DNA of 23,001 nt from assembly GCA_016212295.1 (NCBI GenBank), contig JACRGO010000151.1, forward strand, positions 1 to 23,001. Reading direction: 5' to 3'. This stretch comes from Nitrospinota bacterium. GTDB taxonomy: Bacteria > Nitrospinota > Nitrospinia > JACRGO01. The number at the start of each line of letters is the position of its first letter. The first letter of the stretch is position 1. Below are positions 1,741-22,329 of this stretch, piece after piece. The notes under the pieces are model-generated. The model was not told the origin of the DNA and made no database searches. It saw nothing but the letters and a program-made list of their open reading frames with translations. Both the position numbers and the translations under genes were made by a program.

Positions 1741-1773
1741 GCCTTCAGCCTTCAGCCTTCAGCCTTCAGCCTT
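1741..1773. repeat. 7-bp tandem repeat (GCCTTCA)n overlapping the MMPL stop codon
   Basis: Four full copies of GCCTTCA (AGGCTGA on the coding strand) plus a partial fifth. The MMPL stop codon (1752-1754, TGA on the minus strand) lies inside copy 2, so the last residues of that protein (ERLKAEG) are encoded by the repeat. Confidence 0.85.
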
Positions 1774-3971
1774 TCACCCTTCACTTCCTCCCCTTTCCTG
1801 AAACAAAACAAAAGCGCGGGCAGTATCAGCAGGTTCCCGATCAGCGCCGCCAAGAAGGAAAAGGAGGAAAGAATGCCGAAGTTCCGCGTTGGAATGAATT
1901 GGGAAAAGGCGAAAACCAGAAACCCCAGGGAAAGGACCATGGAGGTGAAAATAATCGCCCCGCCGGTCTTCCGGTAGCCCAGGTAAACTGCCCCGCTTAT
2001 GTCCTCCTTCCAGGAAATGGATTTCAAATGGCAAAGGAAATGCCCGGTTTCGTCCACCGCGATCCCAAGTATCACGCTGGCCACCATGACATTAGCAACG
2101 TCGAAGTCCAGCCCAAGCGTGAACATAAGACAAAAAGCGCAAAAAATCGGAAAGAGATTCGGGATGACCGCCAGGAGGCCGAGGCTTAGGTCCTTGAGCA
2201 GCAGGAAAAAACAAATCAGGATAACCAGGAAGCTGGAGCCGAAGCTTTTAAACAGGGTCTCAAGCAGATAGCTTTGCGCGCTAAGGATAAGCGGGAATTG
2301 GCCGGTAACGGCCATCTTCATTTTCCGCGAAAGAGGACTTCTGTAAAACGCCTTTTCCACTTCCAGCTTGATCTGACGGAATTCCTCGTAATCGATGGTG
2401 GGAAGCCCCAATGTTATCCTGGCCTTGGAAAATGTGGGATTGACAAAGGAGCGCAGGACCTCAGGATTTTTTTCAAGAAGGGTTTGAAAATACACTCCAA
2501 CCAAAAAATCAGGGGGCGGCCTGAAGGCGCGGAATTTCAGTCCATGCAGCTCAGCCAGAAGGGACGCGACGGAATACGCCCTCCTGACTCCATTGATTTT
2601 TTCCAGATCAACGCCAAAGGCATAAATGTCATCCAGAATTTTAGCGCTCTTTAATTCGTTTTCTTCTCCCTCAATGACCATTTCGATGCTGGTTAAAGGC
2701 AGCCCGGCCTCTTCAAGGAAGGAGGTGTTTTGCCTTATGAAGCTGTCTTGCTTGAAATAGTACAGGCCGTTGGTTTGGAAATGGACGTCCTGGCAGTGGA
2801 GCAAGGCATAAGCCACTGGAACCACCGCCAACAACAGTATGGCAGCGCGCCATTTCCGGACCCCGGAAGCCATGTGTCTGAAAAAACCGTCCAGGTCGAC
2901 CCTGGTGGTTGACGGCCCTTTTTTCAGCAGGACCAAAAGCAGGGCCGGGAAAACAGAGAAGAGCAGGAATAGGGATATAAAGCAGCCGATAAAAAGATAA
3001 ACGCCAAGGGACTTGATGGGTCCCAACGGACTCAAGGCAAAAGAGCCGAAACCCACGGCTGTGGTGAAATTAGCGAATAGGCATGGGGCGAATTTTTCCC
3101 GCATGGTCTGAAGCAGTCCTTCCTCAAGCCGGCCTTCGGCCATCGGATGGGACGCCAGATGCTCAAGCAGGTGTATGGCGGCGGCAAGAGTGATGATGTA
3201 CAGGATCACCGGCGTGATGGAATTCACTATATTAAGATCGCTTCCCATGTACCCGATAAAACCCATCATGAAAATTTCCGTGAAAAGGATCAGGATCATT
3301 GGAGCAGCGACCAAGCGTATGTCGCGGAAAAGGTAAAAAAGGACCGCCACGGATATGATGAAAAGAAGCGGGAAGAATACCGCCACCGCCTCCTCGGGGG
3401 TCTCGCTGAGAAAGTGGTTCAACACGGGCTGCCCCGCGATTTTCACCGACTTCATGTCAACTCCGCATTGGACAAGGACCTTTTCCGCGTCGTGAAAGAT
3501 ATCTCCTCTTTGGGCGGATGAGGCGGCCTTGATCTTCAAGGCAAAGGCCAGGTAATTTTTGTCCAAGGACAGAAAGCCGCCCTTCTTTTCAAAGGGGTTG
3601 CCCTCCACCATCTCCTTCATCTTTTGGACGTCCAGCCGGCCCTCGGTTGCTGTCACGATTTCCGCGTATTTTTCAAGAGGATTGTACACCCCCTCAACGC
3701 CCTGGATTTGTTTCAGCCTTTTGCTGATCTCTCCATATAATGGGGAATCAAGGGTCTTCTCAATAGGGGCCTGGATCAGGACGAACAGATACTCGTCGCT
3801 CCCGAATTCCCGCTTGAACTGATCGTAGACCTCCTTGGCGGGGTCCCCGTCCGCGAAAAAAATTTCAGTGGAACTGTCCAGCCTTATCCTCATTGAGAAG
3901 AAAAGGGCGGGCAGGGCCAGGAGGAAGACACACGCCAGTATTTTGTAGTGATGGTCGAGAATGGTTTTCAT
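1752..3971 (-). CDS. MMPL/RND family exporter (HAE3-like)
   Basis: 739 residues, with the internal duplication typical of the RND superfamily. An N-terminal membrane helix (about 11-28) is followed by a large periplasmic domain, then a bundle of helices (from PEEAVAVFFPLLFIISVAV) and a linker. A second half follows with its own helix near residue 375, a second periplasmic domain and a final helix bundle. The motif GIAVDETGHFL in the second half matches the RND GhxxD-type proton-relay segment; the equivalent first-half helix (NIVNSITPVILYI) lacks the Asp. Such proteins, including HpnN, export lipids or other hydrophobic molecules from the inner membrane. It starts 5 nt after the stop of the upstream radical SAM gene, so the two form an operon. 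The substrate is unknown; a lipid is inferred from the family. The C-terminal tail is made of tandem-repeat DNA. Confidence 0.88.
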   Translation of the reverse strand: MKTILDHHYKILACVFLLALPALFFSMRIRLDSSTEIFFADGDPAKEVYDQFKREFGSDEYLFVLIQAPIEKTLDSPLYGEISKRLKQIQGVEGVYNPLEKYAEIVTATEGRLDVQKMKEMVEGNPFEKKGGFLSLDKNYLAFALKIKAASSAQRGDIFHDAEKVLVQCGVDMKSVKIAGQPVLNHFLSETPEEAVAVFFPLLFIISVAVLFYLFRDIRLVAAPMILILFTEIFMMGFIGYMGSDLNIVNSITPVILYIITLAAAIHLLEHLASHPMAEGRLEEGLLQTMREKFAPCLFANFTTAVGFGSFALSPLGPIKSLGVYLFIGCFISLFLLFSVFPALLLVLLKKGPSTTRVDLDGFFRHMASGVRKWRAAILLLAVVPVAYALLHCQDVHFQTNGLYYFKQDSFIRQNTSFLEEAGLPLTSIEMVIEGEENELKSAKILDDIYAFGVDLEKINGVRRAYSVASLLAELHGLKFRAFRPPPDFLVGVYFQTLLEKNPEVLRSFVNPTFSKARITLGLPTIDYEEFRQIKLEVEKAFYRSPLSRKMKMAVTGQFPLILSAQSYLLETLFKSFGSSFLVILICFFLLLKDLSLGLLAVIPNLFPIFCAFCLMFTLGLDFDVANVMVASVILGIAVDETGHFLCHLKSISWKEDISGAVYLGYRKTGGAIIFTSMVLSLGFLVFAFSQFIPTRNFGILSSFSFLAALIGNLLILPALLFCFRKGEEVKGERLKAEG

Positions 3972-3976
3972 AGTCT

Positions 3977-5398
3977 TTAAAATCTATGCCTTGAGCGGAA
4001 CTGGTCTCCCTGGAACCATCCCCTTATGTATTCAAAATTATTGAGCATGACCTTCAAGGACCCCTTTTCCCTGTTCCTTATTAGATTATTGTCGACAAAC
4101 CATCCTGGACGGAAAAACATTTTCATGTTCTCCCAATTCATGGCCCTGTTCAGTTGCTTGTTTGTCATGTGCCTGGTCCTGACGTTGCACATAAAGCCGT
4201 TGTAGCGGCTCAGACCGTTTTTGTTTGTCACAAGCCCCATTTCCAGAAGCTCTTCCCGCAGCTTCGTGCTTGGATACGGGGTCAGGCACTGCACTACCGC
4301 CAAGTCTATCCTGAGTTTTTTCGCCTCCTTGAACACGTTCCGCACGTCTTCCCTGGTGTCGTCCGGGTTCCCCACTATGAAGCCGCCCAGTATGGCGATG
4401 CCGCGGCTCTTCAGGAGATCAACGGCCTGGACGGTCTTTTCCCTTATATCGCCCTTCTTCAGAAACTGGAGGTTCTTTTTGTGAACGGACTCTATGCCGA
4501 GGAACACCAGCTTGAAATTGGCCGCGGCCATCTTGTCGACCAGTTCCGGGTCCTGCGCGATGCCAAGCACCGAGGCCTGCACGAAGTACTCCATGGAGTT
4601 GAGTCCCTTTTCCACTATGGCCTCGCAAATGGCCTTGAACCGTGGAACGTCCTGGGTGATGTTGTCGTCAACCATTAGCACGGTCTCCACCTTGCCGGAC
4701 TTAACCCGCTCCAGGTCCCGTATGACCCTGTCTATTGAATAGGGACGAAAACTCCTTCCGTACATATTGGCTATGGAGCAAAAACTGCATTGAAAGGAGC
4801 AGCCACGGGAGGTCTCGATTGCGTCCATCTTCTTGCTCAGGTAAGTAAAATTCTTGAGCAGCCTTGGGGAACGGTCCGGCAGTGGAAGAGTCGAAAGGTC
4901 CATCAACTCTCCGGGCGGATTGTGCGCGAACTTCCCGTTTTCCTTATATGAAAGTCCGGGGATGCCGGAAAACGAGGCCCCCCTTTCCAAGGCATCGGCC
5001 AGCATGGGGAAGGCCCTTTCTCCCTCGCCCCTGATTATAAAATCGAATGCCGGGTCCCGCTCTTCGGCCAGGGTCTTCCACTGGGTGGTGGCGTGGTAGC
5101 CGCCAAGGGCGATTTTTATCCCAGGATCAAATTGCCGGATAAGGGACATGGCCTTTTTGGCGGTCGGGTATTGAAAACTCATGCTGCTTACGCCTGCCAG
5201 GTCCGGCGTGAACTCACGAAGACAATCGCTTAAGCAAGCTCCAACGCCCTTGTGCGCCAGCACCAGGTCCAGGATTTTCACCTCATGGCCTTTCAGGTTG
5301 GCTGCAATGGAGCACAGACCCAGGTTGGGGATCTTGACCATCCTGAAGAAATTGTTCGCCGCGTCCGGCATGGCAATAAGAAGTATTTTCATGGGCAT
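3977..5398 (-). CDS. B12-binding domain radical SAM protein
   Basis: 473 residues. An N-terminal Rossmann-like cobalamin-binding domain (about 1-140: KILLIAMPD, TPDLAGVSSMSFQYPTA, IALGGYHAT, FIIRGEGERAF) precedes a radical SAM barrel with the cluster motif ETSRGCSFQCSFCSIANMYG (Cys 200, 204, 207). The C-terminal extension after about residue 380 (FMCNVRTRHMTNKQLNRAM) resembles that of class B radical SAM enzymes acting on lipids or tetrapyrroles. It is upstream of, and nearly contiguous with, the MMPL exporter, suggesting it makes or modifies the exported compound. Length and exporter context resemble hopanoid-associated HpnJ, but no other hopanoid gene is present and I do not assign that name. 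A second in-frame ATG at 5392 (MKILLIAM) is an equally good start. No strong ribosome site is seen. Confidence 0.9.
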   Translation of the reverse strand: MPMKILLIAMPDAANNFFRMVKIPNLGLCSIAANLKGHEVKILDLVLAHKGVGACLSDCLREFTPDLAGVSSMSFQYPTAKKAMSLIRQFDPGIKIALGGYHATTQWKTLAEERDPAFDFIIRGEGERAFPMLADALERGASFSGIPGLSYKENGKFAHNPPGELMDLSTLPLPDRSPRLLKNFTYLSKKMDAIETSRGCSFQCSFCSIANMYGRSFRPYSIDRVIRDLERVKSGKVETVLMVDDNITQDVPRFKAICEAIVEKGLNSMEYFVQASVLGIAQDPELVDKMAAANFKLVFLGIESVHKKNLQFLKKGDIREKTVQAVDLLKSRGIAILGGFIVGNPDDTREDVRNVFKEAKKLRIDLAVVQCLTPYPSTKLREELLEMGLVTNKNGLSRYNGFMCNVRTRHMTNKQLNRAMNWENMKMFFRPGWFVDNNLIRNREKGSLKVMLNNFEYIRGWFQGDQFRSRHRF

Positions 5399-8280: not shown

Positions 8281-9687
8281 CTAATAGACATACTTCCTTA
8301 TCAAACCGCCGGCGAAGATCTCCTTCTGGCGCTCGATTCTGTGTGCGGCCTTGTTTATCCTGTAAACCCCTCCGCTGTAGAGCCTGTGAAAATCCTCGTC
8401 CCCCAGCGGACTGCAATTCACCTTTTGCGAAAAATAGGTGTAATGGCCGTAATGGTATTTATCCGGATCAAACCCCTCCTTCACCGCCATGTCAAACAAC
8501 GGCGTGCCGGGATGCGGCCTCACCTGGAACACCCTGGGAAAATCCAGCAGGGACCTCTCGGCGAAATCCATGGTGTCCAGCATCTCCTCCCTTGTTTCCG
8601 TGGGGAACCCTATCATGAAGAACCCGAAGGTGATGATCCCCAGTTCAGAGGCTATCTGGACGTTCTCCACCAGCTTCGGGATGTTGAGGTTTTTTTGCAG
8701 TAACTTTTGCAGACGCCTGGAGGTGGTCTCCACCGCGAAGGTCATGGAGTAGCACCCGGCGTCCTTCAACGCCTCTATGGTTTCGCGGTCCAGGATGTCC
8801 CCTCTAACGCCGTTGGGAAAGGAGATGCTTAAGTCCCATCCACGCTCAACTATCTTGCCGCAGAGTTCCAGGACCCGCTCACGGTGCAGATTGAATATAT
8901 CGTCTATGATCTGAATCTCGCGAATTCCGTACCGTCCATATAGGATTTCAAGCTCTTCGAGGATGTTACCGATTGACCGCAGCCTGATCTGTTTTCCATA
9001 AAGGTTGTGGCAATAGATGCAATGATAGGGACAGCCCCGCGATGTGAACATTGGGAAATACCGCTCGCTCCTCAGGAACGGAGCGTTGAAGTTAAAGGAG
9101 CAGGCATAGTCGTCGATATTCACCAGGTCCCAATCCGGGAAGGGAAGACCGTCCAACTCGTCCGGCCTTTTCCCCTCGCCGGTAAAAACGGGACGCCCGT
9201 CGCCGTTCCTGGACATGAAGCCTTTCACCTTGGACGCGTCTCCGCCGCCGGACAAGGCGTCGAGCAGTTCAACAAAGGTATACTCCGCCTCGTTCACGGC
9301 CACGAAGTCTATGTCCTTCTTTTCTGCTGCGTGTTTAGGGTCGGATGAGGCACAGGGTCCGCCCAGGACCACCGGACACGCCTTATTGTAATCCTTCACC
9401 ATCGCGGCGATTTCAAGAATCCTGTGCTCCTCACAGGTGAGTCCGCTTATTCCCGTGAAGTCCGGCGCGAATGAGTTTATCATGCCTTGCAGTTCGGCTA
9501 TCTTTCCCGTCTCCACCCCCACGTCCAGGAGCTTGACGTCGTATTGATGGCCGCCCCATTTCTTCAGGCAGGAGCTTAGATACATAAGCCCAAGGGGAGG
9601 CATGATGGCGTCCTGGTTCTGGGCCACGGTATGCCCCTTGGCGCCGGGAACAGTGCTTCTTATCAACAATACCTTCCTGGGTTTCAT
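8281..9687 (-). CDS. B12-binding domain radical SAM protein coupled to a MoaD-like carrier
   Basis: 468 residues. The N-terminal cobalamin-binding domain (about 1-150: KVLLIRSTVPGA, MPPLGLMYLSS, DFTGISGLTCEE, PVVLGGPCAS) is followed by a radical SAM barrel with the cluster motif FTSRGCPYHCIYCHNLYG (Cys 219, 223, 226). Later blocks (IIDDIFNLHRERV, FFMIGFPTETREEM, VRPHPGTPLFDMA) are standard for the class B family. The substrate is unknown. Its ATG overlaps the stop of the upstream MoaD-like gene by 4 nt, so the two are translationally coupled and probably act together. It is only distantly similar to the other radical SAM gene of the window and is not a recent duplicate. Confidence 0.9.
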   Translation of the reverse strand: MKPRKVLLIRSTVPGAKGHTVAQNQDAIMPPLGLMYLSSCLKKWGGHQYDVKLLDVGVETGKIAELQGMINSFAPDFTGISGLTCEEHRILEIAAMVKDYNKACPVVLGGPCASSDPKHAAEKKDIDFVAVNEAEYTFVELLDALSGGGDASKVKGFMSRNGDGRPVFTGEGKRPDELDGLPFPDWDLVNIDDYACSFNFNAPFLRSERYFPMFTSRGCPYHCIYCHNLYGKQIRLRSIGNILEELEILYGRYGIREIQIIDDIFNLHRERVLELCGKIVERGWDLSISFPNGVRGDILDRETIEALKDAGCYSMTFAVETTSRRLQKLLQKNLNIPKLVENVQIASELGIITFGFFMIGFPTETREEMLDTMDFAERSLLDFPRVFQVRPHPGTPLFDMAVKEGFDPDKYHYGHYTYFSQKVNCSPLGDEDFHRLYSGGVYRINKAAHRIERQKEIFAGGLIRKYVY

Positions 9688-9965
9688 TCCGACCCTCCGG
9701 CGACCGGGGTCAAGATAAAGACCTCGTCGCCTTCGCGCACCTTGGTCTCCATTTGCTGGTTAAAAAGAATATCGTTTCCGTTCACGTAGATCTTATAGAA
9801 GGACTTAAGATTTCCCTCCAGATCATAAAGATGCTCCTTGAGGTCCGGGAAGCTCCTGTTCAGGGAGTCCATCACCTCGCCCACCGTGTTTCCATCCAGT
9901 TTTATCAGGTCCACGCCCCCGATAAGCCTTGCTATCAAAGGGGGAACCAAAAGATTTACCGCCAT
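9684..9965 (-). CDS. MoaD/ThiS-like beta-grasp sulfur carrier, C-terminus GGSE
   Basis: 93 residues with the ubiquitin-like plan of MoaD-type carriers: NTVGEVMDSLNRSFPDLKEH, an LYDLEGNLKSFYKIYVNG segment, and DEVFILTPVAGGSE at the end. MoaD, ThiS and CysO carry sulfur as a thiocarboxylate on a terminal Gly-Gly. Here two residues (SE) follow the Gly-Gly, so activation would first need a protease such as a JAMM/Mec+ enzyme; none is in the window. GGAGG lies 6 nt before the ATG. It is coupled by a 4-nt overlap to a B12-radical SAM gene, with no molybdopterin gene nearby, so a role in molybdenum cofactor synthesis is not supported. It is a paralogue of the carrier at 22,051. Confidence 0.86.
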   Translation of the reverse strand: MAVNLLVPPLIARLIGGVDLIKLDGNTVGEVMDSLNRSFPDLKEHLYDLEGNLKSFYKIYVNGNDILFNQQMETKVREGDEVFILTPVAGGSE

Positions 9966-10009
9966 TAAGGTCCTCCAAGATTAAATTCAATGTTAAAAAG
10001 GAAAAACAA

Positions 10010-10160
10010 AAGCCCAAATGACAAATAGCAAATTACAAATAAATTACAAATTACAATTACTGAATGTCCAAAACAACTCCACTTCCTTGTTTGTCATTTA
10101 TAATTTTGGTTATTGAGATTTATTTGTTATTTAACAATTGAGATTTGGAACTTAATAGCG
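10010..10160. repeat. Degenerate AAATTACAAATTAC repeat with inverted halves
   Basis: The left half contains several degenerate copies of CAAATTACAAATAA. The right half carries the complementary words (TTTGTCATTTATAATTTTGG, TTATTTGTTATTTAACAATTG), so the block is a loose inverted repeat. It fills the gap between the M55 peptidase and the MoaD-like gene. No gene is present. Confidence 0.65.
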
Positions 10161-10181: not shown

Positions 10182-11087
10182 TTATTTTCTATAAACCATT
10201 CGCAGAAGCCGCGAACCCGCCGGCAGGCTAAGCAGAGGGCCTAATACCACAACCAGGGGATAAAGTCCCCTTGGTATGAAAAGAAAATTGAAAAGAGCGC
10301 GGAAGGCGCCCAAAAAATCCGGCCTCTCCAGCGCGAATCGGGCCGCTGAAATCCTTGTGAGTCCCCAGGTGTTTCTTGCTATTGGACTCTCCGGGAAGTG
10401 GAGTTCAATCTCCACGCGGACCGGGACCTGGAATTGAAACCTTTTCATCCCGCTTGCGCGCTCAACGGCCTTGCGGCTTTTTTCAAAGAGGTCCTTTCTT
10501 TCCCTCATAATGGTCTCGTCCCGCTTCGCCACGGTCTCAAAATCCCCAAGGCGCTTGGAGCAAGGGACCAGCTCCGCCCAGGGGAGCGTCCCGGCTATTG
10601 ACTCCAGGAGGACCGGGTCTCCGCTGACCAAACCCACCGGCGTTTCGAGTCCTTCGCCTATTACCGCTGCCATGATCTCCGCCTCTGAGACAATCCTTCC
10701 ATTCACGCTGATGGATTTAACATGGTGATGAAGGATATGCGGATAAAAGGCGCCGGGAGAGTCAACGGACGCATGGTGCGCGATCAAAAAAGCCATTGAG
10801 TATTTTGCCTTTTTCCCTATGGCCGGGAGCGGACGAAAACGAACGCCTCCAATAACCTCAACGGACCGGGGGAGCATGTCCCGCGCGACATTGGCTCCAA
10901 ATCCGTGATAATCCCTCACTGTGGCCTTCCGCAATCCAGCCCGGCTTGCGCCATCAATAGCGGAACGGATATCCTCTGACAGGCAAGTCCTGCCCCACCG
11001 TTTCCATTCCGGCGCTCCTGGGGTAAACTGTTCTTGTTTATAAATGCCGCAGGCGCCCTCCATGTCAGCGAGAATGTAAAGGCTCAT
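10182..11087 (-). CDS. M55 family D-aminopeptidase (DppA-like)
   Basis: 301 residues. It starts MSLYILADMEGACGIY, with Asp8 and Glu10 in the positions of the first DppA zinc ligands. The other expected ligands follow: His61 (RDYHGFGAN), His104/105 (FLIAHHASVDSPGAF) and Glu135 (NGRIVSEAEIMA). M55 enzymes release D-amino acids from D-peptides such as peptidoglycan fragments; the subunits assemble into a self-compartmentalised ring. Unlike Bacillus DppA, the sequence ends with a strongly hydrophobic segment (about 262-292, FRALFNFLFIPRGLYPLVVV) followed by a basic tail, which may anchor it to the membrane. No peptide transporter gene is adjacent. Upstream and downstream gaps are filled by repeats. 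Confidence 0.85.
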   Translation of the reverse strand: MSLYILADMEGACGIYKQEQFTPGAPEWKRWGRTCLSEDIRSAIDGASRAGLRKATVRDYHGFGANVARDMLPRSVEVIGGVRFRPLPAIGKKAKYSMAFLIAHHASVDSPGAFYPHILHHHVKSISVNGRIVSEAEIMAAVIGEGLETPVGLVSGDPVLLESIAGTLPWAELVPCSKRLGDFETVAKRDETIMRERKDLFEKSRKAVERASGMKRFQFQVPVRVEIELHFPESPIARNTWGLTRISAARFALERPDFLGAFRALFNFLFIPRGLYPLVVVLGPLLSLPAGSRLLRMVYRK

Positions 11088-19844: not shown

Positions 19845-20783
19845 ATGAAAAAAAATAATTCCAGGATTCCAGGCCAGGCAACGGACCTGATCGGGAACAC
19901 ACCCATGATCCGGCTCAAGCATCCCGGCGGCGCTGGCGCCGCCGCTGTCTTCGCCAAGCTGGAATGCTATAATCCAGGGGGAAGCATAAAGGACCGCATA
20001 GCTCTGAGCATGGTGGAGGCCGCTGAGCAAAGCGGAAAGCTGAAGGAAGGGGCCACTATTATCGAGCCCACCAGCGGAAATACCGGCATCGGACTGGCCC
20101 TGGTGGGGGCGATCAAGGGCTATCGGGTGATCCTGGTGATGACCGAAAGCATGAATGAAGAGCGGCGCATGTTCCTTAAAAATTTCGGCGCTGAAACCGT
20201 CCTCAGCAGGGCGGAACTGGGCATGCAGGGCTCGGTTGATCTGGCCGAGGAAATGGCGGCCCAGAACCCTGATTATTTCATGCCTCAGCAGTTCAACAAT
20301 CCGGCTAATCCGGAAATCCACCGGCGGACCACCGCCCTGGAAATTCTGGAGACAATGGGCGAGGTCCCCATCCACGCCTTTGTGGCCGGGGTGGGAACAG
20401 GCGGGACCTTGACCGGAATCGGGGAAGTGCTGAAGGAGAAATACCCTGATATCCGCGTTGTGGCCGTGGAGCCCGAGGCCTCGCCGGTCCTGTCAGGCGG
20501 CCTGCCGGGCGGACACAAAATCCAGGGCATAGGCGCCGGGTTTGTTCCTAAAATTCTCAACCGGGAAATCATTGACGAAGTGATTACCGTTTCCGACGAC
20601 CAGGCGTACCGCGCCTCCATAAGGTTGGCCAAGGAGCAGGGCCTCACCATGGGCATCTCATCAGGGGCGGCTTATTCCGCCTCGGAGGCCCTGGCCAGGC
20701 GGCTTGGACCAGATAAAAACATTGTGACTATCTTCCCGGACGGCGGCGAAAGATACGTCTATTACCAAAAGTACTTTAATTAG
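19845..20783 (+). CDS. cysK: Cysteine synthase (O-acetylserine or O-phosphoserine sulfhydrylase family)
   Basis: 312 residues, fold-type II PLP enzyme. The start GQATDLIGNTPMIRL is typical. Lys49 in NPGGSIKDR is the PLP lysine, TSGNTG (76-81) binds the substrate carboxylate, GVGTGGT (182-188) holds the cofactor phosphate, and SSGAAY (272-277) is also conserved. The enzyme replaces the activated side chain of serine with sulfide or a thiocarboxylate to give cysteine. Sequence alone does not separate CysK from CysM or from a CysO-dependent form. Downstream thrC follows after 8 nt and a sulfur carrier after that, which favours a carrier-protein sulfur source. No good ribosome site is visible before the ATG. 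Confidence 0.9.
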   Translation: MKKNNSRIPGQATDLIGNTPMIRLKHPGGAGAAAVFAKLECYNPGGSIKDRIALSMVEAAEQSGKLKEGATIIEPTSGNTGIGLALVGAIKGYRVILVMTESMNEERRMFLKNFGAETVLSRAELGMQGSVDLAEEMAAQNPDYFMPQQFNNPANPEIHRRTTALEILETMGEVPIHAFVAGVGTGGTLTGIGEVLKEKYPDIRVVAVEPEASPVLSGGLPGGHKIQGIGAGFVPKILNREIIDEVITVSDDQAYRASIRLAKEQGLTMGISSGAAYSASEALARRLGPDKNIVTIFPDGGERYVYYQKYFN

Positions 20784-20791
20784 GAAGAAAT

Positions 20792-22030
20792 ATGAGTTTT
20801 GTAAAAGGCCTTCAGTGCAGGGAATGCAAAAGGGAATATCCCAAAGACCCGGTCCACGTATGCGAGTTCTGCTTCGGTCCCTTGGAGGTTAATTATGACT
20901 ACGAGGGAATACAAAAGGTCCTCACCAGGAAAAAAATTGAAAGCCGACCACCTAACATGTGGCGGTATAAGGAATTGCTGCCCATTGACGAGGACCCTAT
21001 AGTCGGCCTGTACGTCGGGTGGACGCCCCTTATCAAGGTCAAGAACCTTGCCAAGGCGTTAGGCATGAACAACCTTTATATAAAGAACGACGCGGTGAAC
21101 CATCCGACCCTGTCCTTCAAGGACCGCGTGGTGTGCGTGGCCGTGTCCAAGGCCAGGGAGTTCGGTTACGACACAGTGGGCTGCGCCTCAACCGGAAACC
21201 TGGCCAATTCCGTGGCCGCCCATGCCGCTGAAGCCGGGATGAAAAGCTATATCTTCATTCCGGCTGACCTTGAGCGTGGCAAGGTGCTGGGGACCTTGAT
21301 CTACGGCACAAACCTTGTGGGGGTGCATGGGAATTACGACGAGGTAAACCGCCTGTGCAGCGAGATCGGGGCCAAGTACCACTGGGCCTTCGTGAACATA
21401 AACATACGCCCTTATTACGGGGACGGGTCCAAGTCGTTCGGATACGAGATCGTGGAACAATTGGGCTGGCGCACGCCCGATAACGTGGTGGTGCCGGTGG
21501 CCGGAAGCTCCCTCATCACCAAGATACACAAGTCGTTCAAGGAGTTCAAGGACCTGGGCCTGATAGAGAAGGCCGATTGCAAAATCTTCGCGGCCCAGGC
21601 GACCGGCTGCGCCCCCGTGACCACAGCCATAAAAAACCGCACTGACGTGATAAGGCCCGTGAAACCGAACACCATCGCGAAATCCATCGCCATCGGGAAC
21701 CCGGCGGACGGATATTACGGCGTGAAGACGGTATCGGAAACAGGCGGATGGGGCGAGGACGTCACGGACGATGAAATCATTGACGGCATGAAGCTCCTGG
21801 CCCAGACCGAAGGGGTTTTCACCGAGACCGCCGGAGGGGTCACCGTCGCCGTTACCCGCAAACTGATTCAGCAAGGGCGAATCAAGCCGGACGAGTTGAC
21901 CGTTATTTCCATAACAGGGAACGGACTAAAGACGCGCGAGGCCATTGAAAAGAGCGTCGGCGAGGCCGGGATCATCGAGCCCACCCTGGCCGCCTTTGAA
22001 GCATTCTTTTCCAATTTAAAAAACCATTAG
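20792..22030 (+). CDS. thrC: Threonine synthase with N-terminal zinc-ribbon
   Basis: 412 residues. An N-terminal Cys4 ribbon (Cys9, 12, 24, 27, in LQCRECK and VCEFCFG) precedes a fold-type II PLP domain with Lys110 in NHPTLSFKDR and the substrate loop CASTGNLANS (131-140). PVAGSSLITK and SITGNGLKT are further family blocks. The enzyme converts O-phosphohomoserine to threonine. AGGAAG lies 5 nt upstream of the ATG, and cysK ends 8 nt before. Because threonine synthase-like enzymes share the homoserine-ester substrate with homocysteine synthesis, and a MoaD-like carrier follows, a role in thiocarboxylate-dependent homocysteine formation is conceivable, but the threonine synthase assignment is preferred. 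Confidence 0.9.
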   Translation: MSFVKGLQCRECKREYPKDPVHVCEFCFGPLEVNYDYEGIQKVLTRKKIESRPPNMWRYKELLPIDEDPIVGLYVGWTPLIKVKNLAKALGMNNLYIKNDAVNHPTLSFKDRVVCVAVSKAREFGYDTVGCASTGNLANSVAAHAAEAGMKSYIFIPADLERGKVLGTLIYGTNLVGVHGNYDEVNRLCSEIGAKYHWAFVNINIRPYYGDGSKSFGYEIVEQLGWRTPDNVVVPVAGSSLITKIHKSFKEFKDLGLIEKADCKIFAAQATGCAPVTTAIKNRTDVIRPVKPNTIAKSIAIGNPADGYYGVKTVSETGGWGEDVTDDEIIDGMKLLAQTEGVFTETAGGVTVAVTRKLIQQGRIKPDELTVISITGNGLKTREAIEKSVGEAGIIEPTLAAFEAFFSNLKNH

Positions 22031-22050
22031 ATCTTTTGGAGGTATGACCC

Positions 22051-22329
22051 ATGCCAGTGATTGTACGCATCCCTTCCCCCTTGCTGAAGCTTACCAAAAA
22101 CCAAGGAGAGGTTTCCGCCGAGGGGAACAACGTCAAGGAGGTTTTCAATAACCTTGACTCGCAGTTTCCAGGACTCAAGGAGCGGCTTTATGACGAAAGC
22201 GGCAACTTGAGGAGGTTCGTCAACGTTTATGTTAACGACGAGGACATCCGTTTCAAGGATGGAGAAGCCACCGCGTTGAAGAACGGCGACGAGGTCTCCA
22301 TTATCCCGGCAATAGCAGGGGGGAAGTAA
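22051..22329 (+). CDS. MoaD/ThiS-like beta-grasp sulfur carrier, C-terminus GGK
   Basis: 92 residues. NNVKEVFNNLDSQFPGLKER, then LYDESGNLRRFVNVYVND and GDEVSIIPAIAGGK show the MoaD/ThiS/CysO fold with Gly-Gly followed by one lysine. GGAGG lies 8 nt before the ATG, 20 nt after thrC. Threonine synthase/MoaD-like pairs are found in several bacterial groups, and carriers of this kind (CysO of mycobacteria, HcyS of Wolinella) donate sulfur to cysteine or homocysteine after thiocarboxylation. The extra lysine implies prior trimming by a metalloprotease that is not in the window. An out-of-frame ATG at 22,044 was rejected as it gives an unrelated frame. Confidence 0.88.
   Translation: MPVIVRIPSPLLKLTKNQGEVSAEGNNVKEVFNNLDSQFPGLKERLYDESGNLRRFVNVYVNDEDIRFKDGEATALKNGDEVSIIPAIAGGK

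Follow-up and report, generated by a model that had tools for sequence, protein, structure and literature searches.

A three-gene unit found in one genus

The window, by which we mean the whole 23,001-nt stretch of Nitrospinota DNA analysed here (contig JACRGO010000151.1), comes from a 3.74-Mb draft genome with a completeness of 90.5% and a contamination of 0.4%. Its minus strand carries, in this order, a gene for a family M55 peptidase (DppA-like D-aminopeptidase family; 10182–11087), a gene for a 93-aa CysO-like carrier of the ThiS/MoaD fold (PF02597; 9684–9965) with the C-terminus ...TPVAGGSE, and a gene for a 468-aa radical SAM enzyme with the Pfam domains B12-binding and Radical_SAM (8281–9687). 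The stop codon of the carrier gene overlaps the start codon of the radical SAM gene by 4 nt in the sequence ATGA (9684–9687), and GGAGGG is read just 5' of that ATG. The coordinates, the Pfam domains and the ATGA all agree with the original prediction of a carrier ending in VAGGSE and overlapping a B12-binding radical SAM gene by 4 nt. The prediction was right about this pair but overlooked the M55 gene, which lies just upstream in the same orientation, belongs to the unit and is separated from the carrier gene by a 216-nt AT-rich spacer in which a repeat search found imperfect inverted repeats (9982–10160, without strand).

Comparison with a single genus-mate, a Nitrospinia metagenome assembly (record JAJDAS010000341.1), revealed the same gene order and orientation, from the M55 peptidase through the carrier (ending in VAGGLT) to the radical SAM enzyme. 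There, the carrier and radical SAM genes overlap at the same place by GTGA and the M55 and carrier genes by 10 nt, so that all three genes are overlapping; the spacer with its inverted repeats is absent, and the repeats in the window are possibly an inserted small repeat element. Protein identity between the two species is 78% for the carrier, 77% for the radical SAM enzyme and 54% for the M55 peptidase, whereas third codon positions of the orthologues are near saturation, which shows that selection acts on the encoded proteins; as judged from these sequences, the carrier and radical SAM genes are genuine. The genes flanking the trio differ on both sides between the two genomes. Among 77 Nitrospinota genomes, the M55 gene is present in exactly the two that carry the carrier–radical SAM pair. 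Thus, the adjacency is not unique to the window's genome and the link between carrier and enzyme looks real within one genus, the conserved unit being, on this genomic comparison, a predicted M55–carrier–radical SAM operon found in that genus only. Because both draft genomes belong to the same genus, inheritance of the trio counts as one evolutionary event. Beyond the 3' end of the trio, the genus-mate has a gene for a 609-aa B12-radical SAM protein that is extended by an additional region at its N-terminus, followed by a methyltransferase gene (L189:10555–13794).

The M55 peptidase scores 144 bits against PF04951 (cut-off 25). When aligned with DppA (1hi9), the protein keeps the DMEG, two His and Glu positions, which we take to be the metal ligands. 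DppA, the characterised member of the family, is an aminopeptidase for short D-peptides and would be an unlikely choice for cutting the carrier after its Gly-Gly; we know of no DppA-type M55 enzyme that cuts there.

A divergent CysO-like carrier

The carrier of the trio scores 42.4 bits against the ThiS-family model PF02597 (cut-off 22.5) and its best sequence matches in the PDB are CysO of Mycobacterium tuberculosis (3dwg, 5.8e-11) and CysO of Amycolatopsis (4n6e). Its predicted structure matches SAMP1 and CysO with TM scores of 0.81–0.84 (0.81 for CysO), SAMP1 being the best match, and the tail (residues 89–93) is disordered. SAMP1 is also the best profile match (NF041918), at 54.1 bits against a cut-off of 60. 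These two SAMP1 matches raise the idea that the carrier acts as a protein modifier, conjugated to the radical SAM enzyme or binding and regulating it in the manner of Urm1 or SAMP1. However, the profile score lies under the cut-off, the operon has no dedicated conjugation or deconjugation gene and nothing indicates a conjugate, which makes this role improbable.

The genome encodes four carriers above the ThiS-family cut-off: MoaD next to moaE and moeA on contig C103, a short ThiS-family carrier near thiH on contig C111, the carrier of the trio, and an ordinary CysO-like carrier in the window (22051–22329, plus strand) that ends in AIAGGK and passes the SAMP1 cut-off with 60.7 bits. The latter is directly preceded by thrC (20792–22030) and, 5' of that, cysK (19845–20783), both on the plus strand; this cysK–thrC–carrier cluster (19845–22329) is the common arrangement across Nitrospinota. 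Genes for molybdopterin, thiamine or tungsten enzymes, stated in the original prediction to be missing nearby, are indeed missing there, but the second CysO-type carrier with its cysK and thrC had been overlooked. Identification of the trio carrier as MoaD was rejected (no match to TIGR01682, and the MoaD–MoaE–MoeA locus on C103 is separate), as was its identification as ThiS (16.2 bits against 37.45, no adjacent thi genes, and the ThiS-family carrier on C111 lies elsewhere). The scenario in which the carrier is a true MoaD with its moaE elsewhere in the genome does not apply either, MoaD and MoaE forming their own locus. Of the earlier label 'MoaD-like', the ubiquitin-like, β-grasp fold stands, but by sequence the protein is closest to CysO.

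We conclude that the trio carrier is a divergent CysO-like carrier. It has the β-grasp fold, the C-terminal Gly-Gly and the closest sequence similarity to CysO, and the genome contains an E1, a CysM-like enzyme and a JAMM protease, but the carrier lacks the linkage to thrC, cysK/cysM, E1 or JAMM genes that marks the type. Together with its orthologue, it differs at 16 of the 34 positions at which at least 80% of 24 other CysO-like carriers agree, including four (L11, N58, R67 and P86) that are invariant in all 24; the same leave-one-out count gives 0 to 12 differences for the others. The AGG motif is kept despite these losses, as would be expected for a carrier with a changed partner. In a poorly resolved tree, the carrier and its orthologue pair alone on a long branch, apart from the thrC-linked carriers of the phylum. 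An origin of the trio carrier by recent duplication from the nearby thrC-linked one is not supported, the two carriers being only 40% identical and the trio-type pair having its own long branch.

A profile of the two trio-type carriers was searched against 387 genomes and, at 112 loci of CysO-like carriers, the neighbouring 1.5 to 6 kb were inspected, some contigs ending inside this range; B12-radical SAM neighbours were recognised by the two radical SAM queries from the window. Ninety-nine of these loci adjoin ThrC, CysK/CysM, E1 or JAMM protease genes, 11 have neither these nor a B12-radical SAM neighbour, and the two that adjoin a B12-radical SAM gene are those of the window and the genus-mate. 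Outside Nitrospinota, no B12-radical SAM gene was found within the 1.5–6 kb flanks of any of 82 loci. Accordingly, the adjacency, for which the original prediction had proposed a count across genomes, does recur in the genus-mate but is rare (2/112 carrier loci, one genus). A different pairing is seen in two distant genomes, where CysO-like carriers lie beside a repeat protein that, from its sequence, appears BNR/sialidase-like (L073:1501–2891 and L183:1333–2832).

The restriction of the unit to a single genus, the absence of such neighbours at the 82 outside loci and the existence of radical SAM homologues without a carrier are what would be expected if the genes were linked without sharing a reaction, the carrier being a spare CysO paralogue for cysteine or Fe-S supply that is kept in the operon by chance in one genus. 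On the other hand, a normal carrier of the CysO-like type is already encoded in the genome, and the trio carrier has diverged strongly from it while remaining 78% identical between species whose third codon positions are saturated. Moreover, the three genes, overlapping in the genus-mate, stay together despite changed flanks, and the M55 gene tracks the pair. On balance, we consider linkage without a shared reaction unlikely.

The original prediction remarked that the two residues after Gly-Gly would require trimming. Such a need would not be unusual, since an extra tail is the norm among the CysO-like carriers examined: only about one in five stops right at Gly-Gly, the majority carry from one to a few extra residues, and in about a fifth the chain continues into another domain, of the E1 or NIL type. 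The frequency of such tails in bacteria suggests that trimming of CysO-like carriers by JAMM proteases is probably routine. The machinery anticipated at unlinked sites of the genome, a JAMM protease and a MoeB/ThiF-type E1, is present in both parts: contig C97 encodes a JAMM protein with an intact HSHx7SxxD pattern, and contig C16 a MoeB-like E1 whose gene adjoins that for a CysM-like synthase. As to the NIL-type domains, one of about 80 residues follows the Gly-Gly of a CysO-like carrier at L101:1264–1860 (checked against Pfam), and similar-looking tails are seen at L102, L103, L109, L119, L135, L145, L152, L153, L155, L169 and L172; NIL-tailed carriers often adjoin thrC, cysM or E1 genes.

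The B12-binding radical SAM enzyme

The enzyme matches Radical_SAM (PF04055) with 80 bits and B12-binding (PF02310) with 54.4 bits, and its domain order, with the B12-binding domain at the N-terminus and the radical SAM domain, bearing a CX3CX2C motif (residues 219–226), after it, places it in class B. The presumed use of cobalamin is to be read with the top fold match, AprD4, in mind: AprD4 retains a B12 domain without needing cobalamin. The AlphaFold model (pLDDT 89.7) has as its nearest folds in Foldseek the class B enzymes CysS, MgmA, OxsB, TsrM and TokK and the B12-fold relative AprD4, which share its domain order and whole-chain fold with Z scores of 24–31 over 369–425 residues, at only 16–24% identity; these Foldseek and VIA-align comparisons assign the class of the enzyme, not its reaction. 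Most of these solved neighbours are methyltransferases and some act on tethered substrates, CysS and TokK having been solved with pantetheinylated ones. No NCBIfam equivalog attains its cut-off with this protein.

Methylthiotransferases of the MiaB/RimO/MtaB class were rejected as an identity (TIGR00089, 31 bits against 251; TIGR01125, 25 against 357), and there are no invariant cysteines beyond CX3CX2C that would fit this class. A defence-system reading was likewise set aside, the PADLOC match being weak and restricted to the radical SAM domain. The window has another B12-radical SAM gene (3977–5398, minus strand), which scores 152 bits with the BchE model, far under its cut-off, and is directly followed by a gene for an HAE3/MMPL-type transporter, the whole region spanning 1752–5398 on the minus strand.

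No radical SAM orthologue of more than 42% identity was found beyond the genus in the 387 genomes and three small additional phylum samples. A peptide-pattern scan of a collection of 84,980 species, which detects close relatives only, returned a single full-length match above 42%, that of the genus-mate. Near the homologues of 33–42% identity in other genomes, neither a carrier nor an M55 gene was found within the flanks covered. These homologues occupy varied settings, some beside genes that, from their sequences, appear glycosyltransferase-like or sulfatase-like. In one genome, four related B12-radical SAM genes are clustered beside a gene for a membrane protein that appears glycosyltransferase-like (L186, contig C46 of G380).

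Across 36 homologues, the cysteines of CX3CX2C are the only invariant ones, although the enzymes of the window and the genus-mate share a few further single cysteines. No conserved auxiliary cluster that could serve as a sulfur source is thus evident, and an outside sulfur donor would therefore be needed for a sulfur-inserting reaction. The trimmed carrier, as a thiocarboxylate, might supply this sulfur for a thiolation or methylthiolation involving the enzyme: carriers of the CysO type are sulfur donors (PMC3227635) and the genome has both the E1 and the JAMM protease. However, the solved structures that come closest in fold are those of AprD4 and methyltransferases, we found no use of a thiocarboxylate by this enzyme class in the open-access literature, and the M55 peptidase is left unexplained. 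We consider simple sulfur donation unlikely taken by itself, but a close rival of the pathway that we favour.

A possible carrier-tethered pathway

The reading that we prefer, to which we assign a probability of only about 0.35, is that the C-terminus of the carrier is the site at which an amino acid is assembled, to be modified there by the radical SAM enzyme before a peptidase sets it free. It covers all three genes of the trio, which simple sulfur donation does not. We infer every chemical step, as well as the substrate, the adduct and the role of the M55 peptidase. The JAMM protease would trim the carrier to Gly-Gly and the MoeB-like E1 would activate it to a thiocarboxylate, which the CysM-like PLP synthase could turn into a carrier–amino acid adduct, as in CysO-dependent cysteine synthesis. 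The radical SAM enzyme would next act on the residue so tethered, methylation being the likeliest change, and either JAMM or M55, as the metallopeptidase, would release or finish the product.

Published work offers two points of comparison. CysO-thiocarboxylate is converted by CysM to a carrier–cysteine adduct that is then cleaved by a protease, and one E1 is able to serve both MoaD and CysO (PMC3227635). In pearlin biosynthesis, TmoD, a cobalamin radical SAM enzyme, modifies an amino acid while it is attached to the C-terminal end of a carrier peptide; a protease releases it, and the gene cluster includes a metalloprotease (PMC9303977). Besides the TmoD precedent and the pantetheinylated substrates of CysS and TokK, the tethered pathway is supported by the conserved order and orientation of the trio amid differing flanks, by the restriction of M55 to the same 2/77 Nitrospinota genomes as the pair, by the divergence of the carrier at 16/34 positions with AGG kept, and by the presence in the genome of the MoeB-like E1, the CysM-like synthase and the intact JAMM protease. 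Against it, the two draft genomes that carry the unit are of a single genus, the operon itself has neither a PLP synthase nor an E1, and a carrier that has lost positions typical of CysO might not be accepted by CysM any more. In addition, the enzyme class does not need a carrier, because the homologues of 33–42% identity have none adjacent.

We found no published system in the open-access literature in which a cobalamin radical SAM enzyme is paired with a carrier of the MoaD-like or thiocarboxylate kind. In broader terms, at somewhat less than even odds, a ubiquitin-like CysO-type carrier may have come to serve a B12-radical SAM enzyme as its scaffold or sulfur donor. With a peptidase encoded in the operon as well, this would be a kind of carrier-based biosynthesis not previously described. 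If so, ubiquitin-fold thiocarboxylate carriers would meet cobalamin radical SAM chemistry, two enzymologies not known to be joined, and β-grasp carriers would join acyl carrier proteins and peptides as supports for the tethered synthesis of small molecules. The compact, overlapping three-gene unit is amenable to direct in vitro testing.

Among known systems, the CysO/CysM/Mec+ (JAMM)/MoeZ cysteine synthesis of M. tuberculosis is alike in the fold, sequence and Gly-Gly end of its carrier and in the E1, CysM-like enzyme and JAMM protease, all present in the window's genome. Here, however, the genes for these partners are not linked to the carrier gene, whose neighbours in the operon encode a B12-radical SAM enzyme and an M55 peptidase instead, and the carrier lacks 16 of the 34 conserved CysO-type positions. 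Pearlin biosynthesis, with the carrier peptide TmoA, TmoD and the metalloprotease TmoG, likewise brings together a carrier, a B12-radical SAM enzyme and a metallopeptidase, and the modification that we propose for an amino acid tethered to its carrier would be shared, by analogy only; in contrast, the carrier here is a β-grasp protein rather than a short peptide, the peptidase belongs to M55, and no PEARL ligase was seen among the surrounding window genes examined. To our knowledge, the thioquinolobactin system has no radical SAM enzyme. Its small sulfur carrier protein QbsE is nevertheless a case of recruitment into a specialised pathway (PMC3053476), and it is in such recruitment that the carrier of the trio would resemble it.
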